Position numbers and translations under genes: made by a program. This document shows, piece after piece, positions 1-4,529 of a DNA stretch of 64,000 nucleotides. This DNA comes from Sphingomonas immobilis (GTDB lineage: Bacteria; Pseudomonadota; Alphaproteobacteria; Sphingomonadales; Sphingomonadaceae), in assembly GCF_030580995.1 (NCBI RefSeq), contig NZ_JAUQSZ010000007.1, positions 62,001 to 126,000 on the forward strand, written 5' to 3'. The notes under the pieces were generated by a model. It was given only the letters and a program-made list of their open reading frames with translations. It was not told the DNA's origin and made no database searches. Every line of letters starts with the position of its first letter. Position 1 is the stretch's first letter.

Positions 1-228
1 GCGCTGGGCAAGGTCTATCCCGGCGTGCCGATCTTCCCGAGCCAGGCGTCGGGCGCGAGCGACAGCATGTGGTTTCGCCACGCCGGTGCCGACAGCTACG
101 GCGCGAGCCCGATTTTCATCAAGGCATCGGACGAGTTCAGCCACGGCCTCAACGAGCGCACGCCGATCGCCAACATCGCGCCGGCGATCACTTATTATCT
201 CTCGCTGTTCACCGACCTGTCGAAGTGA
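1..228 (+). CDS. M20-family metallopeptidase, C-terminal fragment (5' end outside window)
   Basis: Only the last 75 codons lie in the window, open from base 1 to a TGA at 226-228. The fragment contains HGLNERTP, the late metal-ligand/catalytic region of M20/M25/M40 zinc peptidases, preceded by GASDSMWFRHAG. Such enzymes remove amino acids from peptides or acyl-amino acids. The stop codon overlaps the start of the Rieske oxygenase gene (TGATG), so the two are probably co-transcribed. Which M20 subgroup it belongs to cannot be told from the fragment. Confidence 0.75.
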   Translation, partial: ALGKVYPGVPIFPSQASGASDSMWFRHAGADSYGASPIFIKASDEFSHGLNERTPIANIAPAITYYLSLFTDLSK

Positions 229-1415
229 TGGCGGCGCGCGCCGATCCTGCGCCGGAGGTGGAACTGGATCCCGATGCCGACTGGGGCCTGCCGGGGTGGA
301 TCTATCACGACCCGGAGTTTCTCGACGTCGAGATTGCGCGCGTGCTGCGGCCATCGTGGCAGATCGTCTGCCATGAGAGCGACCTGGCGGGGGCGGGCGC
401 GTACCGGACGCTCGACTATCTCGGCGAGAGCGTTGTCGTGGTGCGCGGCGAGGACGGCGCGTTGCGCGCCTTTGCCAATGTCTGCCGCCACCGTGCGATG
501 CGGATCGTCGAGGGGCCGGAGGGCTGCGCTAGGAAGCTGGTCTGCCCCTATCATGCCTGGGTCTACGAGCTCGACGGGCGGTTGTCGGGCGTGCCGTCGC
601 GGCGTGATTATCCGGCGCTCGACATGGCGGCGCAGGGGCTGAAGCCGGTCGATATCGAGATCTGGTGCGGCTTCGTCTTCGTGCGGCTGGAGGATGATGG
701 CGGGCCTTCGGTGGCGGCGATGATGGCGCCGTATGCGGACGAGATCGCGCCCTATCGCTTCGAGGATCTGCGCACGATCAGCCCGGTGCGGGAACGGGCG
801 CGGGCGGTGAACTGGAAGAATGTCGGCGACAATTATTCGGACAACCTCCACATTCCCGTTGCGCATGACGGGCTGACGCGGCTGTTCGGCGACAGCTATG
901 CGATCGCGGCGCAGCCGTGGGTCGACAAGATGAGCGGACGGCTGGTCGAGCGGCCGTCGCGGAATCCGTGGGAGCGCTTCTACCAGACGCACCTGCCGCG
1001 CGCGCCGCATCTGCCGGAGGAGGCGCAGCGGCTGTGGCTCTATTACAAGCTGTGGCCGAACATGGCGTTCGACATCTACCCCGATCAGGTCGATTTCATG
1101 CAGTGGCTGCCGATGAGCGCGACGACATGCGTGTTGCGCGAGATGGCGTTCGCCCTGCCGGACGACGGCCGCGAGATGAAGCTGGTGCGCTATGCCAACT
1201 GGCGGATCAACCGCGTGGTCAACGCCGAGGACACCTGGCTGATCGAGCGCGTGCAGCAGGGGATGCAATCGGCCAGCTTCACCGCCGGGCCGATCGGCGC
1301 GAGCGAGGTGTGCCTGCGCAGCTTCGCGGCGAAGATCCGCGCGCGGATCCCGGAGGCACGCTTGCCGCGCGCGCCGGCAGCGGGGTGGAGCAGGCGGGTG
1401 CGGGGGCACGAATGA
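228..1415 (+). CDS. Rieske aromatic-ring-hydroxylating oxygenase, alpha subunit
   Basis: A 395-residue oxygenase large subunit. The Rieske [2Fe-2S] ligands are C86/H88 (VCRHR) and C106/H109 (VCPYH). The mononuclear-iron site is in DNYSDNLHIPVAH, with H208, H213 and the bridging D205. The ATG at 228 is chosen because it overlaps the upstream stop; the reading frame stays open further upstream, but that part overlaps the peptidase. It ends in an ATGA overlap with the flavoprotein gene. These enzymes use electrons from a separate reductase to hydroxylate or demethylate a substrate; no reductase or ferredoxin gene is visible, and the substrate is unknown. Confidence 0.88.
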   Translation: MAARADPAPEVELDPDADWGLPGWIYHDPEFLDVEIARVLRPSWQIVCHESDLAGAGAYRTLDYLGESVVVVRGEDGALRAFANVCRHRAMRIVEGPEGCARKLVCPYHAWVYELDGRLSGVPSRRDYPALDMAAQGLKPVDIEIWCGFVFVRLEDDGGPSVAAMMAPYADEIAPYRFEDLRTISPVRERARAVNWKNVGDNYSDNLHIPVAHDGLTRLFGDSYAIAAQPWVDKMSGRLVERPSRNPWERFYQTHLPRAPHLPEEAQRLWLYYKLWPNMAFDIYPDQVDFMQWLPMSATTCVLREMAFALPDDGREMKLVRYANWRINRVVNAEDTWLIERVQQGMQSASFTAGPIGASEVCLRSFAAKIRARIPEARLPRAPAAGWSRRVRGHE

Positions 1416-3019
1416 CGCGGAAATACGACGCACTCATCATCGGTGGTGGCCACAACGGGCTCGTCTGCGCCTTCTATCTCGCGCGCGCCGGGTTGAAGGT
1501 GCGCGTGCTGGAGCGGCGCGATGTGGTCGGCGGCGCGTGCGTGACCGAGGAATTCGCGCCCGGCTTCCGCAATTCGACCGCGAGCTACACCGTCAGCCTG
1601 CTGCGGCCCAAGGTGATCGCCGACATGAAGCTGCACGATCGCGGCTTTCGGATCATCGAGCGGACGATCTCGAACTTCTTCCCGTTTCCCGACACCTATC
1701 TGAAGCTCGGCGGCGGCACGGCGCGGACGCAGGCGGAATTCGCGCGCTTCTCGCAGAAGGATGCCGACGCCTATCCGGCCTATGACGCCGCGCTGGAGAA
1801 AGTGGCGCAGGTGCTGCGCGATCTTGCTCTCAAGACGCCGCCGAACGTGGGTGGGGGGCTGCGCGCGCTGATCTCCGGGGCGGGGCAGGGCTGGCCGCTG
1901 GCGAAGCTGGGGATCGAGGCGCAGCGCGATCTGCTCGACGTGTTCACCAAATCGGCGCGCGATTTCCTCGATCGCTGGTTCGAGGATGATCACGTCAAAT
2001 CGGCCTTCGCCTTCGACGCGGTGGTGGGGAATTACGCGGGCGTCTCGACGCCGGGCAGCGCCTATGTCCTGCTCCACCACGTCTTCGGCGAAGTGAACGG
2101 CAAATACGGCGCGTGGGGCCATTCGGTCGGCGGCATGGGCGCGATCACCCAAGCGATGGCGGCGGCGTGCGTCGAGGCGGGGGTGGAGATCAGCCTCGAA
2201 GCGCCGGTCGAGACGGTGCTTACGGACGGTGGCCCAGAACGGACTAGGGCGGCGGGCGTTCGGCTGGTATCGGGCGAGGAGATCGCCGCGACCGTGGTCG
2301 CCGCCAATGTCGGGCCGGCGTTGCTCTATCGCCGGATGGTCGATGCGGCCGACCTGCCGGCCGATTTCAAGCGGCGGATGGACGGGTTCAAGACCGGCTC
2401 CGGCACCTTCCGCATGAACGTCGCGCTGAGCGAGCTGCCCGATTTCACCGTGCTGCGCGGCAAGGACAAGGCCGAGCATCACACCGCCGGCATCATCATC
2501 GCGCCGGGCATGGACTATATGGACCAGGCCTTCATCGACGCGCAGCAGTTCGGCTGGTCGAAGAAGCCGATCGTCGAGATGAAGCTGCCGACGACGGTCG
2601 ACGACAGCCTCGCGCCGCCGGGGCAGCATATCGCCAGCCTGTTCTGCCAGCAGTTCGACCCCAAGGCCGATTGGGATGCGCACCGCGAAGCGGTGGCGGA
2701 CCTGATCGTCGAGACGGTCAACGATCACGCGCCCAATTTCAAAGCGTCGATCCTCGCGCGGCAAATCCATTCGCCGCTCGATCTGGAGCGCAAGTTCGGG
2801 CTGATCGGCGGCGACATCTTCCACGGCACGATGGGGCTCGACCAGCTCTGGGCGGCGCGGCCGACGCTGGGGCATGGCGACTACCGCAGCCCGATCGCGG
2901 GGCTGTATATGTGCGGATCGGGTACGCATCCCGGCGGCGGCGTGACGGGTGCGCCGGGGCATAACGCGGCGCATGAGATATTGCGGGACCGGAGTTTGCT
3001 ACGCCGGTTGTTTGGCTAG
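1412..3019 (+). CDS. FAD-dependent oxidoreductase, PYROXD2/phytoene-desaturase-like
   Basis: A 535-residue flavoprotein. Residues 5-30 form the dinucleotide-binding fold (IIGGGHNGLVCAFYLARAG) and are followed by the VLERRDVVGGACVTEEF signature of the PYROXD2/carotenoid-desaturase group. The C-terminus has the second FAD contact (GLYMCGSGTHPGGGVTGAPG). The start is the ATG at 1412, overlapping the Rieske stop; the open frame extends upstream but is antisense-like there. It probably works with the oxygenase and the peptidase on one catabolic route, but this is inferred only from operon structure. The 3' end overlaps the convergent permease gene by 21 bp. Confidence 0.85.
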   Translation: MTRKYDALIIGGGHNGLVCAFYLARAGLKVRVLERRDVVGGACVTEEFAPGFRNSTASYTVSLLRPKVIADMKLHDRGFRIIERTISNFFPFPDTYLKLGGGTARTQAEFARFSQKDADAYPAYDAALEKVAQVLRDLALKTPPNVGGGLRALISGAGQGWPLAKLGIEAQRDLLDVFTKSARDFLDRWFEDDHVKSAFAFDAVVGNYAGVSTPGSAYVLLHHVFGEVNGKYGAWGHSVGGMGAITQAMAAACVEAGVEISLEAPVETVLTDGGPERTRAAGVRLVSGEEIAATVVAANVGPALLYRRMVDAADLPADFKRRMDGFKTGSGTFRMNVALSELPDFTVLRGKDKAEHHTAGIIIAPGMDYMDQAFIDAQQFGWSKKPIVEMKLPTTVDDSLAPPGQHIASLFCQQFDPKADWDAHREAVADLIVETVNDHAPNFKASILARQIHSPLDLERKFGLIGGDIFHGTMGLDQLWAARPTLGHGDYRSPIAGLYMCGSGTHPGGGVTGAPGHNAAHEILRDRSLLRRLFG

Positions 3020-4318
3020 GCGCGGCTTCTCGACCAGCAGCACCCACAAATAGACCGGCACGCCCAGCGCGATCAGCACCAGCCCCCACGCCAGCGTCAC
3101 CAGTCCGCAGCCGTAGATCGCCCATAGCGCGAAGGCGGCGGCGAGCGGGGCGGTGAACCACAAGGCACGCTCGTGCGGGATCAGCTTCAGCGCGGCGGCG
3201 GCGCAGGCGAGATAGGCCATCAGCCCGGTCGCGATCGACACCAGCGCCATGAACTCGAACAGGTTCGACAGCGAGCGACTGAAGTTCATCAGCGTGACGA
3301 TCGTCAGCAATATGCTCGACACGATGTGCGCGCGGGCCGGCGATCCGGCGGCATTTGTGGGTGCCATCCAGCGCGGGAATACGCCGCCAACCGCCATCGC
3401 CTGCGCGACTTCGCCCTGCACCATGACGTAGCCGTTGAGCGCGCCGGCGGCGCTGATCGCGGCGAACAGCGCGACGAGGTTGCCCGCCGCCGCGCCCCAA
3501 TAGGTCGCGATGAAGGCCGCGATCGGGGCGGGCGAGGCGGCGGCCTGCGCGTGCGGCATCAGCACGGTGATCGCGGTCGAGACGAGGATATAGACCACGC
3601 CGGTGAGCACCACGCCGATCATCGTCGCGCGCGGGATGGTGCGGCGCGGGTCGCGGATCTTGGCGGCGGGGACGGTCGCCGATTCGAGACCGACGAACCC
3701 CCAGAAGCTGAGCGCCACCGCACCCGATATCGCACCGGCGGCGAGCGGGACGGGGGCGACGTTGGCGGCGATGTCGGCACCGTGCGTCAGCAGGACGACG
3801 GCCGAAATCCCGATCACCGCGAACAGCGGCAGCAGCTTGAGCAGGGTCGTCGCCATCTGCACGCGGCTCGCCGCGCCGATGCCCGCGATGTTGACGAGCG
3901 TCACCGCCCAGACGAGCGCGACCGCCAGCACGGCGGGCAATCCCGGCACCGCCGCGACGGCGGGCGCGAACACGCTGAGCGCGCTCACCACCGCGACGGC
4001 GATAGCGGCATTGCCCAGCCACACGAAGATCCAATAGGCCCAGGCGACGAAGAACGCCGCCAGATGACCGAACGCGGCGCGCGTATAGGCATAGGGACCG
4101 CCCGCCGCCGGCAGATGCGCGCAGAGCCGGGCGAAGACGTGCGCGATGCACAATGCGCCGCCGATCGTGACGACCCAGCCGATCGCGCCGTTCCACCCCA
4201 GCGGCGCGAGATTGGCGGGGAGGAGATAGATGCCCGAGCCGATGAGATTGCCGACCACCAGCGCCAGGCACGCCCAGAAGCCGATGACGCGGCCCGGTCC
4301 GCTCGTGGTCTCGTCCAT
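2999..4318 (-). CDS. APC-superfamily amino-acid permease (AdiC-like)
   Basis: A 439-residue inner-membrane transporter with about twelve hydrophobic segments. Helix 1 carries the unwound substrate motif GNLIGSGIYLLPANL, very close to the arginine/agmatine and lysine/cadaverine antiporters of the APA family. The start is the ATG at 4318, preceded by AAGGGGAAGG; the upstream in-frame extension runs into the tRNA gene and is rejected. It is likely to move a basic amino acid or polyamine, but the substrate is not determined by sequence. It converges on the flavoprotein gene. Confidence 0.82.
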   Translation of the reverse strand: MDETTSGPGRVIGFWACLALVVGNLIGSGIYLLPANLAPLGWNGAIGWVVTIGGALCIAHVFARLCAHLPAAGGPYAYTRAAFGHLAAFFVAWAYWIFVWLGNAAIAVAVVSALSVFAPAVAAVPGLPAVLAVALVWAVTLVNIAGIGAASRVQMATTLLKLLPLFAVIGISAVVLLTHGADIAANVAPVPLAAGAISGAVALSFWGFVGLESATVPAAKIRDPRRTIPRATMIGVVLTGVVYILVSTAITVLMPHAQAAASPAPIAAFIATYWGAAAGNLVALFAAISAAGALNGYVMVQGEVAQAMAVGGVFPRWMAPTNAAGSPARAHIVSSILLTIVTLMNFSRSLSNLFEFMALVSIATGLMAYLACAAAALKLIPHERALWFTAPLAAAFALWAIYGCGLVTLAWGLVLIALGVPVYLWVLLVEKPRLAKQPA

Positions 4319-4372
4319 CGCCTTCCCCTTCACCGGGCAGTCGATACGATGTGCGGTGGCTTGGCAAGCGAT

Positions 4373-4449
4373 TGGCGCGCCCGGCAGGATTCGAACCTGC
4401 AACTCCAAGCTTAGAAGGCTCGTGCTCTATCCAGTTGAACTACGGGCGC
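4373..4449 (-). tRNA. tRNA-Arg (anticodon TCT)
   Basis: A 77-nt cloverleaf read on the minus strand. The acceptor stem pairs GCGCCCG with CGGGCGC, the anticodon loop is CTTCTAA (anticodon TCT, decoding AGA), and the T-arm holds GTTCGAATC. The 3' CCA is encoded (4373-4375 on the plus strand). The gene is intact, and no integrase or direct repeat suggests use as an attachment site. Confidence 0.95.
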
Positions 4450-4529
4450 GCGCTGGGTTCCGGTTAGCGCGGTTTGCGCGGCTGCGAAACGGCGATATGT
4501 CGTCGGCCTAGCATTTCGGGGGCGGAACG

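Follow-up and report, generated by a model that had tools for sequence, protein, structure and literature searches.

The 64,000-nucleotide stretch of Sphingomonas immobilis DNA analyzed here (the window; positions 62001-126000 of contig C19 in a 4.13 Mb genome) opens with three forward-strand genes, encoding an M20 metallopeptidase, the alpha subunit of a Rieske non-heme iron oxygenase and a flavoprotein, a flavin adenine dinucleotide (FAD)-dependent oxidoreductase (Table 1). The last two genes form the pair with which this text is mainly concerned. An earlier reading made from the letters of the DNA (the sequence-only reading) had described the three genes as joined by overlaps of one and four bases, which is indeed the arrangement; each frame is one open gene, and the overlaps suggest that the trio is co-transcribed. 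Only the 3' end of the M20 gene (positions 1..228) lies within the window, the gene starting 1,175 bases earlier. Extension upstream, as that reading had proposed, added just the remainder of this gene, beyond which come a short open reading frame (ORF) that matches no Pfam family and a gene for NAD synthase; both are on the opposite strand, so the trio is the entire co-directional run. No promoter or terminator signal above that of shuffled sequences was found in a scan. The families named by the sequence-only reading agree with the profile matches: the M20 protein contains the Pfam domains Peptidase_M20 and M20_dimer and passes the curated NCBIfam cut-off for PRK09133 (573.6 bits against 349), the oxygenase contains Rieske and Ring_hydroxyl_A domains, and the flavoprotein matches Amino_oxidase and is of the CrtI-CrtO type. 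The M20 protein looks secreted, with an apparent signal peptide as judged by eye, and because of this the hydrolysis that it catalyzes is probably extracytoplasmic peptide cleavage.

Table 1. Features at the start of the window, in window positions unless the contig is named
Feature	Position	Strand	Remarks
M20 metallopeptidase gene, 467 residues	-1175 to 228 (C19 60825-62228)	+	apparent signal peptide; PRK09133 type
TGATG junction	226..230	+	M20 stop and oxygenase start, 1-base overlap
Rieske non-heme iron oxygenase alpha subunit gene, 395 residues from ATG	ATG at 228, stop ends 1415	+	
ATGA junction	1412..1415	+	oxygenase stop and flavoprotein start, 4-base overlap
CrtI/PYROXD2-like FAD oxidoreductase gene, 535 residues	ATG at 1412, stop ends 3019	+	N-terminal FAD motif GGGHNG
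APC-family permease gene	2999..4333	-	convergent; the arginine/agmatine antiporter AdiC is the nearest solved relative

In order to follow these genes in other genomes, three sets of loci were used. Within the family, 45 of 149 genomes carry the oxygenase at E ≤ 1e-70 (weakest match 3.7e-101), and 40 loci were taken from these with their context, besides the window; a named set comprised 80 loci, mostly Sphingomonas and Novosphingobium records, and a distant set comprised 14 loci from more distant relatives. A flavoprotein of at least 50% identity, on the same strand and within 1.5 kb downstream of the oxygenase, was counted as adjacent. By this rule the flavoprotein gene directly follows the oxygenase gene at 35 of the 40 family loci and 76 of the 80 named ones, so that rare adjacency elsewhere, the finding that the sequence-only reading had named as fatal to it, does not hold for this pair. 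The four exceptions in the named set are two loci without the flavoprotein (L132 and L139), one with the flavoprotein at 1.7 kb (L157) and one with less than 1.5 kb of downstream sequence. For the five family loci without adjacency, the flavoprotein is found elsewhere in the genome in G072, G081, G110 and G145, and none was found at E ≤ 1e-180 in G077; the other carrier that falls short of this threshold, G007, has a downstream flavoprotein fragment in L070. At the genome level, the flavoprotein (E ≤ 1e-180) is present in 43 of the 45 family genomes that carry the oxygenase and in 25 of the 104 that do not (Fisher P 2.8e-17, relatedness ignored); the oxygenase therefore nearly implies the flavoprotein, and the reverse is not true. 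The pairing is not due to chance.

The search for the whole trio in other genomes gave a less uniform result. The M20 gene lies within 10 kb of the oxygenase in 17/40 family loci and 53/80 named loci and is a looser member of the cluster than the pair, and in the distant set the pair itself is seldom adjacent (1 of 14 loci). Within that set, L177 (family f7) has the flavoprotein directly upstream instead and the cluster genes in a different order. Across the phylum, matches to the profile of the oxygenase were found in 22 of 398 genomes and to that of the flavoprotein in 34 of 299, at cut-offs that differ; families f9 and f46 carry the flavoprotein, and the listed oxygenase matches of such strength include none from these two families. 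In L179 (3890-11430), genes for a TauD-family oxygenase, a malate synthase and an aldehyde dehydrogenase lie near an oxygenase that has no adjacent flavoprotein.

Relatives usually show the order M20 (+), BetI-like regulator (-), oxygenase (+), flavoprotein (+), permease (-) and a pair of TPR-sulfotransferase and TonB-receptor genes in either orientation, the regulator often sitting between M20 and the oxygenase. Partners were counted within 10 kb of the oxygenase at loci with at least 6 kb on each side (37 family, 60 named): the flavoprotein was found at 32 family and 58 named loci, the receptor at 27 and 38, the permease at 25 and 55, the sulfotransferase at 24 and 43, the regulator at 23 and 48, M20 at 15 and 44, and a dipeptidase of Xaa-Arg/Lys/Pro type at 14 and 4. 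At 20 family loci with the flavoprotein and no oxygenase, the permease and M20 were each found at two, the regulator at one, and the receptor, sulfotransferase and dipeptidase at none. The partners thus mainly follow the oxygenase, and a general association of the flavoprotein with peptidases was discarded as a rule. Even so, where the oxygenase is absent, M20 comes before the flavoprotein in L224, L240 and L253, and the permease comes after it in L224, L250 and L254. The regulator has a BetI-type C-terminal domain and fails both curated NCBIfam BetI cut-offs (104.5 of 201.3 and 99.9 of 118 bits in L057; 96.0 against each in L045). The dipeptidase is nearest to Cc2672, an 'L-arginine carboxypeptidase' (352.9 bits), and one of the two members checked reaches the NCBIfam Xaa-Pro dipeptidase cut-off. 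These added peptidases, together with the outer-membrane receptor and the basic-amino-acid-type permease, fit the proposal of the sequence-only reading that hydrolysis is followed by oxidation, the substrate being a matter of inference.

The genome of the window retains M20, the oxygenase-flavoprotein pair and the permease. No receptor match (E ≤ 1e-60) and no dipeptidase match (E ≤ 1e-20) were found in it by single-query searches, which can miss diverged copies, and one weak BetI-like match was obtained in the same manner (E 1.9e-6); a full cluster in this genome was rejected on these results. The end of the permease gene overlaps the last bases of the flavoprotein gene on the opposite strand. 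A tRNA-Arg (tct) gene at 4373-4449 (-) lies where the permease gene starts; an overlapping ORF at 4230-4511 is probably spurious, and so is the long 5' end of the permease ORF (to 4408). In other genomes the genes for the TonB receptor and the TPR-sulfotransferase occur as a pair (L034, L045, L053 and many cluster loci). In L212-L214 (family f46), two large opposite-strand genes lie near the flavoprotein, one of which in L212 is a PepO-type endopeptidase by NCBIfam, below the cut-off.

Conservation of the oxygenase was scored over 118 aligned rows, with residues numbered as in P0002, which includes one residue before the ATG. The iron ligands His 209, His 214 and Asp 336 are kept in all 118 rows and the Rieske CxH/CxxH ligands in 116, the other two being gapped there. 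Tyr 204, at the position of Tyr 203 in carnitine monooxygenase CntA, is likewise present in 118 of 118 rows, as is expected of the aromatic residue of group Va oxygenases. In CntA this tyrosine binds the quaternary ammonium group via a pi-cation contact (PMC7948474). CntA is also the best sequence match in the PDB. When a profile of 18 orthologues was compared with PDB sequences, 20 were listed at E ≤ 1e-30; the best stretch spanned both domains (residues 10-350) only for the two CntA sequences among them and ended by about residue 224 for the remaining 18. The predicted structure (mean predicted local distance difference test score, pLDDT, 86.5) is matched most closely by stachydrine demethylase (Z 34.8, 2.9 Å over 353 residues) and CntA (Z 33.9, 2.5 Å over 341 residues), with terephthalate dioxygenase in a near tie (Z 33.5). 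The oxygenase thus descends from, or beside, the quaternary-amine oxygenases.

The predicted structure of the flavoprotein (mean pLDDT 80.3) adopts the carotenoid-desaturase/amine-oxidase fold and is closest to gamma-carotenoid desaturase (Z 33.0); matches at Z 20-27 include phytoene desaturases, renalase, protoporphyrinogen oxidase, and putrescine and monoamine oxidases. The protein misses the curated NCBIfam cut-offs for both CrtO (238.2 of 1000 bits) and crtI_fam (119.1 of 238.1), and for this reason a role as a carotenoid-modifying enzyme was rejected; no carotenoid genes were recognized among the conserved partners. Pairs with divergent oxygenases also occur, in L226, where an oxygenase with the motif ECYHC lies 21 bases from the flavoprotein, in L227, and in L035. 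The second pair of L035, at about 3.4-6.2 kb in the orientation that has the main oxygenase on the + strand, lies near the main pair; its oxygenase is 30% identical and bears the canonical ECYHC motif, and its flavoprotein is 40% identical. In three families, two tandem distant relatives of the flavoprotein precede a GcvT-like gene (L187, L210, L211, L228 and L229). At the f11 loci (L210, L211 and L229) a distance of 9-10 kb separates this block from a sister oxygenase, and the interval contains genes for a class III aminotransferase, an ABC transporter and an amine oxidase. The f14 locus L187 carries two oxygenases as well as a transporter of the polyamine (Pot) type; the ATPase of this transporter exceeds the cut-off of the potA subfamily, and the matches to the remaining Pot models fall short of theirs. 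The GcvT-like protein has a trimethylamine N-oxide demethylase as its best NCBIfam match, far under the cut-off. The tandem flavoproteins with their GcvT-like gene give the clearest hint of N-demethylation.

The arrangement, conservation and co-occurrence of the genes, together with the predicted folds and active-site residues of their products, are shown above; from these we infer a chemistry, an order of steps and a substrate as follows. With some hesitation, we prefer the reading in which the pair would form the oxidizing center of a module that breaks down a cationic N-methylated amino acid derived from peptides. M20 and its relatives, and elsewhere the Xaa-Arg/Lys/Pro dipeptidase, would cut peptides outside the cytoplasm, with the receptor helping to supply the amino acid in other genomes, and the AdiC-like permease would take up the cationic amino acid. 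The oxygenase, drawing electrons from a general reductase, might then hold the methylammonium group by Tyr 204 over the mononuclear iron and oxidize a carbon adjacent to the nitrogen; in the simplest case this would be the carbon of an N-methyl group, which would leave as formaldehyde. The flavoprotein would oxidize the tertiary or secondary N-methylamine that is left, giving an ordinary amino acid. This scheme is supported by the conserved pairing, the set of partners, the CntA-like catalytic half, the invariant tyrosine, the GcvT and polyamine contexts and the amine-oxidase folds.

The best single guess for the substrate would be Nε-trimethyl-, dimethyl- or monomethyl-lysine, the oxygenase taking the quaternary form and the flavoprotein the lower ones. 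Lysine is favored on account of metabolite genome-wide association studies (mGWAS) of human PYROXD2, the peptide and basic-amino-acid partners, and linkage to prmA. We take the flavoprotein to be a relative of PYROXD2, and PYROXD2 to be a member of the CrtI/CrtO family. Of 69 carriers of the flavoprotein in family f9, 37, from 13 genera, have prmA downstream of its gene on the same strand, at a distance of 140-7,561 bases (within 1,200 bases in 34); the gaps are too long for this to be called an operon, and it is probably one ancestral arrangement, retained here as a hint. The product of prmA is the ribosomal protein L11 methyltransferase, which methylates lysine. At three loci of one genus (L215-L217) an M24 peptidase gene comes next after the flavoprotein and prmA. 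Variants of human PYROXD2 are associated with N6-methyllysine and dimethyllysine, to which a replication table adds trimethyllysine and N-methylpipecolate (PMC8109053, PMC9730628); the rare-variant signal for dimethyllysine was not independent of common variants (PMC7878905), and trimethylamine and dimethylamine were reported at the same locus (PMC3169529). As of 2022 the precise function of PYROXD2 was described as little known, with one infantile disease case reported (PMC8777681). A dedicated bacterial pathway for free methyllysine, in which a group-V-derived Rieske enzyme with its bridging Glu changed to Asp converts trimethyllysine to dimethyllysine and a PYROXD2-type flavoprotein converts di- and monomethyllysine to lysine, is as a whole rather unlikely.

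Several observations weigh against the preferred reading of the pair or against its lysine version. The bridging residue, Glu 205 in CntA, is replaced by Asp 206, with aspartate in 117 of 118 rows, so that the glutamate characteristic of group V is lacking; the sole bridging glutamate belongs to the distinct L035 paralogue. A bridging aspartate is typical of ring-hydroxylating Rieske enzymes. The bridging glutamate is essential in CntA, where the E205D variant is reported to be inactive (PMC7948474), and the Cys-X-X-Cys pair described for some group V members (PMC10952381) is present only in the same L035 paralogue. With these two features failing, the oxygenase was left outside group V and true membership was dropped, and the substrate may therefore not be a quaternary amine. 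In the sister oxygenases of f11 and f14 the bridging residue is glutamate, and the cysteine pair and the tyrosine are both missing. No reductase gene adjoins the trio, as the sequence-only reading had remarked, and the two reductase-type PF00970 (FAD_binding_6) domains in the genome, which has seven Rieske-domain matches in all, are both on other contigs. For the flavoprotein, carotenoid desaturases head the fold list, the scores of renalase and protoporphyrinogen oxidase are similar to those of the amine oxidases, and the kinship with PYROXD2 is a presumed one. Most genes near flavoproteins away from the oxygenase look unrelated (CoA-transferase, Lon, PGI, homogentisate dioxygenase), and in L178-L180 the oxygenase lies among unrelated-looking neighbors and the flavoprotein of these genomes is encoded on a different contig. 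The prmA link was not seen in 32 of the 69 f9 carriers, two of which have no prmA match and many of whose assemblies are fragmented, and the arrangement may be an accident. Finally, an arginine-deiminase (ADI)/DDAH-like gene (L181:10303-11169), which would fit methylarginine, stands directly upstream of a diverged oxygenase.

This last locus speaks for the same machinery acting on another cationic substrate, such as methylarginines, proline or pipecolate betaines or N-methyl proline, that Xaa-Arg or Xaa-Pro peptidases would release from peptides; we consider this unlikely but credible. In L181 the ADI/DDAH-like gene forms a single run with the oxygenase, an M24 prolidase-type gene, a dipeptidase (44%), a permease (39%) and an OPT-type transporter; the nearest relatives of the partner dipeptidase, the stachydrine demethylase fold of the oxygenase and the association of PYROXD2 variants with N-methylpipecolate point the same way. 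No homologue of the ADI/DDAH-like gene was found at E ≤ 1e-10 among the other called neighborhood genes, however, and the prmA linkage and the mGWAS data favor lysine. It is unlikely that the oxygenase instead hydroxylates an aromatic or non-methylated amino acid or peptide product, which the flavoprotein would desaturate or oxidize further with no N-methyl role for either. The bridging aspartate resembles that of the aromatic-ring hydroxylases, terephthalate dioxygenase nearly equals CntA in fold score, and carotenoid desaturases are closest in fold to the flavoprotein; against this, among the 20 PDB sequences listed the catalytic half is aligned in the best stretch only to CntA, the cation-binding tyrosine is invariant, and relatives of both enzymes cluster with GcvT, L187 adding the polyamine-type transporter. 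CntA-like cleavage of a C-N bond, releasing trimethylamine or dimethylamine and leaving a semialdehyde while the flavoprotein acts on a separate compound, would accord with the CntA match over both domains, with the flavoprotein lying elsewhere in the genome for 4 of 5 non-adjacent family loci and with the 25 of 149 family genomes in which it occurs and the oxygenase does not, but is improbable given that the close, mostly overlapping genes suggest consecutive steps and that aldehyde dehydrogenase is absent from the eight partner clusters common to at least 15 of 41 loci, L179 having one nearby.

The sequence-only reading had recognized no described pathway with this gene set, and in titles and abstract openings of open-licence PMC papers (preprints lying outside this scope) none was found among the matches listed; nor was PYROXD2 together with a Rieske enzyme, or methyllysine catabolism with a Rieske oxygenase, found in that literature. 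All of the protein families are known, and their combination was not found described. What becomes of methylated amino acids in cells once proteins have been degraded is, in our view, poorly understood, and a tractable bacterial gene pair that plausibly performs methyl-amino-acid chemistry would make both this disposal and the function of PYROXD2 testable. If true, the methyllysine proposal would give human PYROXD2 an enzymatic activity, that of a methyllysine oxidase, and the oxygenase adds a Rieske clade in which a bridging residue essential in CntA has changed.

Among known systems, the CrtI/CrtO desaturase-ketolase family provides the best profile matches and the closest fold for the flavoprotein, which falls under both of its cut-offs. 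The Caulobacter enzyme Cc2672 and Xaa-Pro dipeptidase are relatives of the partner dipeptidase of other genomes, the window genome having no match at the threshold given above. For the oxygenase, glycine betaine monooxygenase GbcA (NF058607) is the best NCBIfam match, at 132.8 bits far under the equivalog cut-off of 670. The likeness to CntA (group Va, 24% identity) comprises the match over both domains, the tyrosine at the cation position and the spacing of the iron ligands, whereas the oxygenase described here differs in its aspartate bridge, the lack of the cysteine pair and of a linked reductase, and its partner flavoprotein. Stachydrine demethylase Stc2 (group Vb) has asparagine at the tyrosine position and retains the glutamate and the cysteine pair, unlike the present oxygenase, yet it is the closest in fold, with 24% identity over 353 residues, and its chemistry is oxidative N-demethylation.

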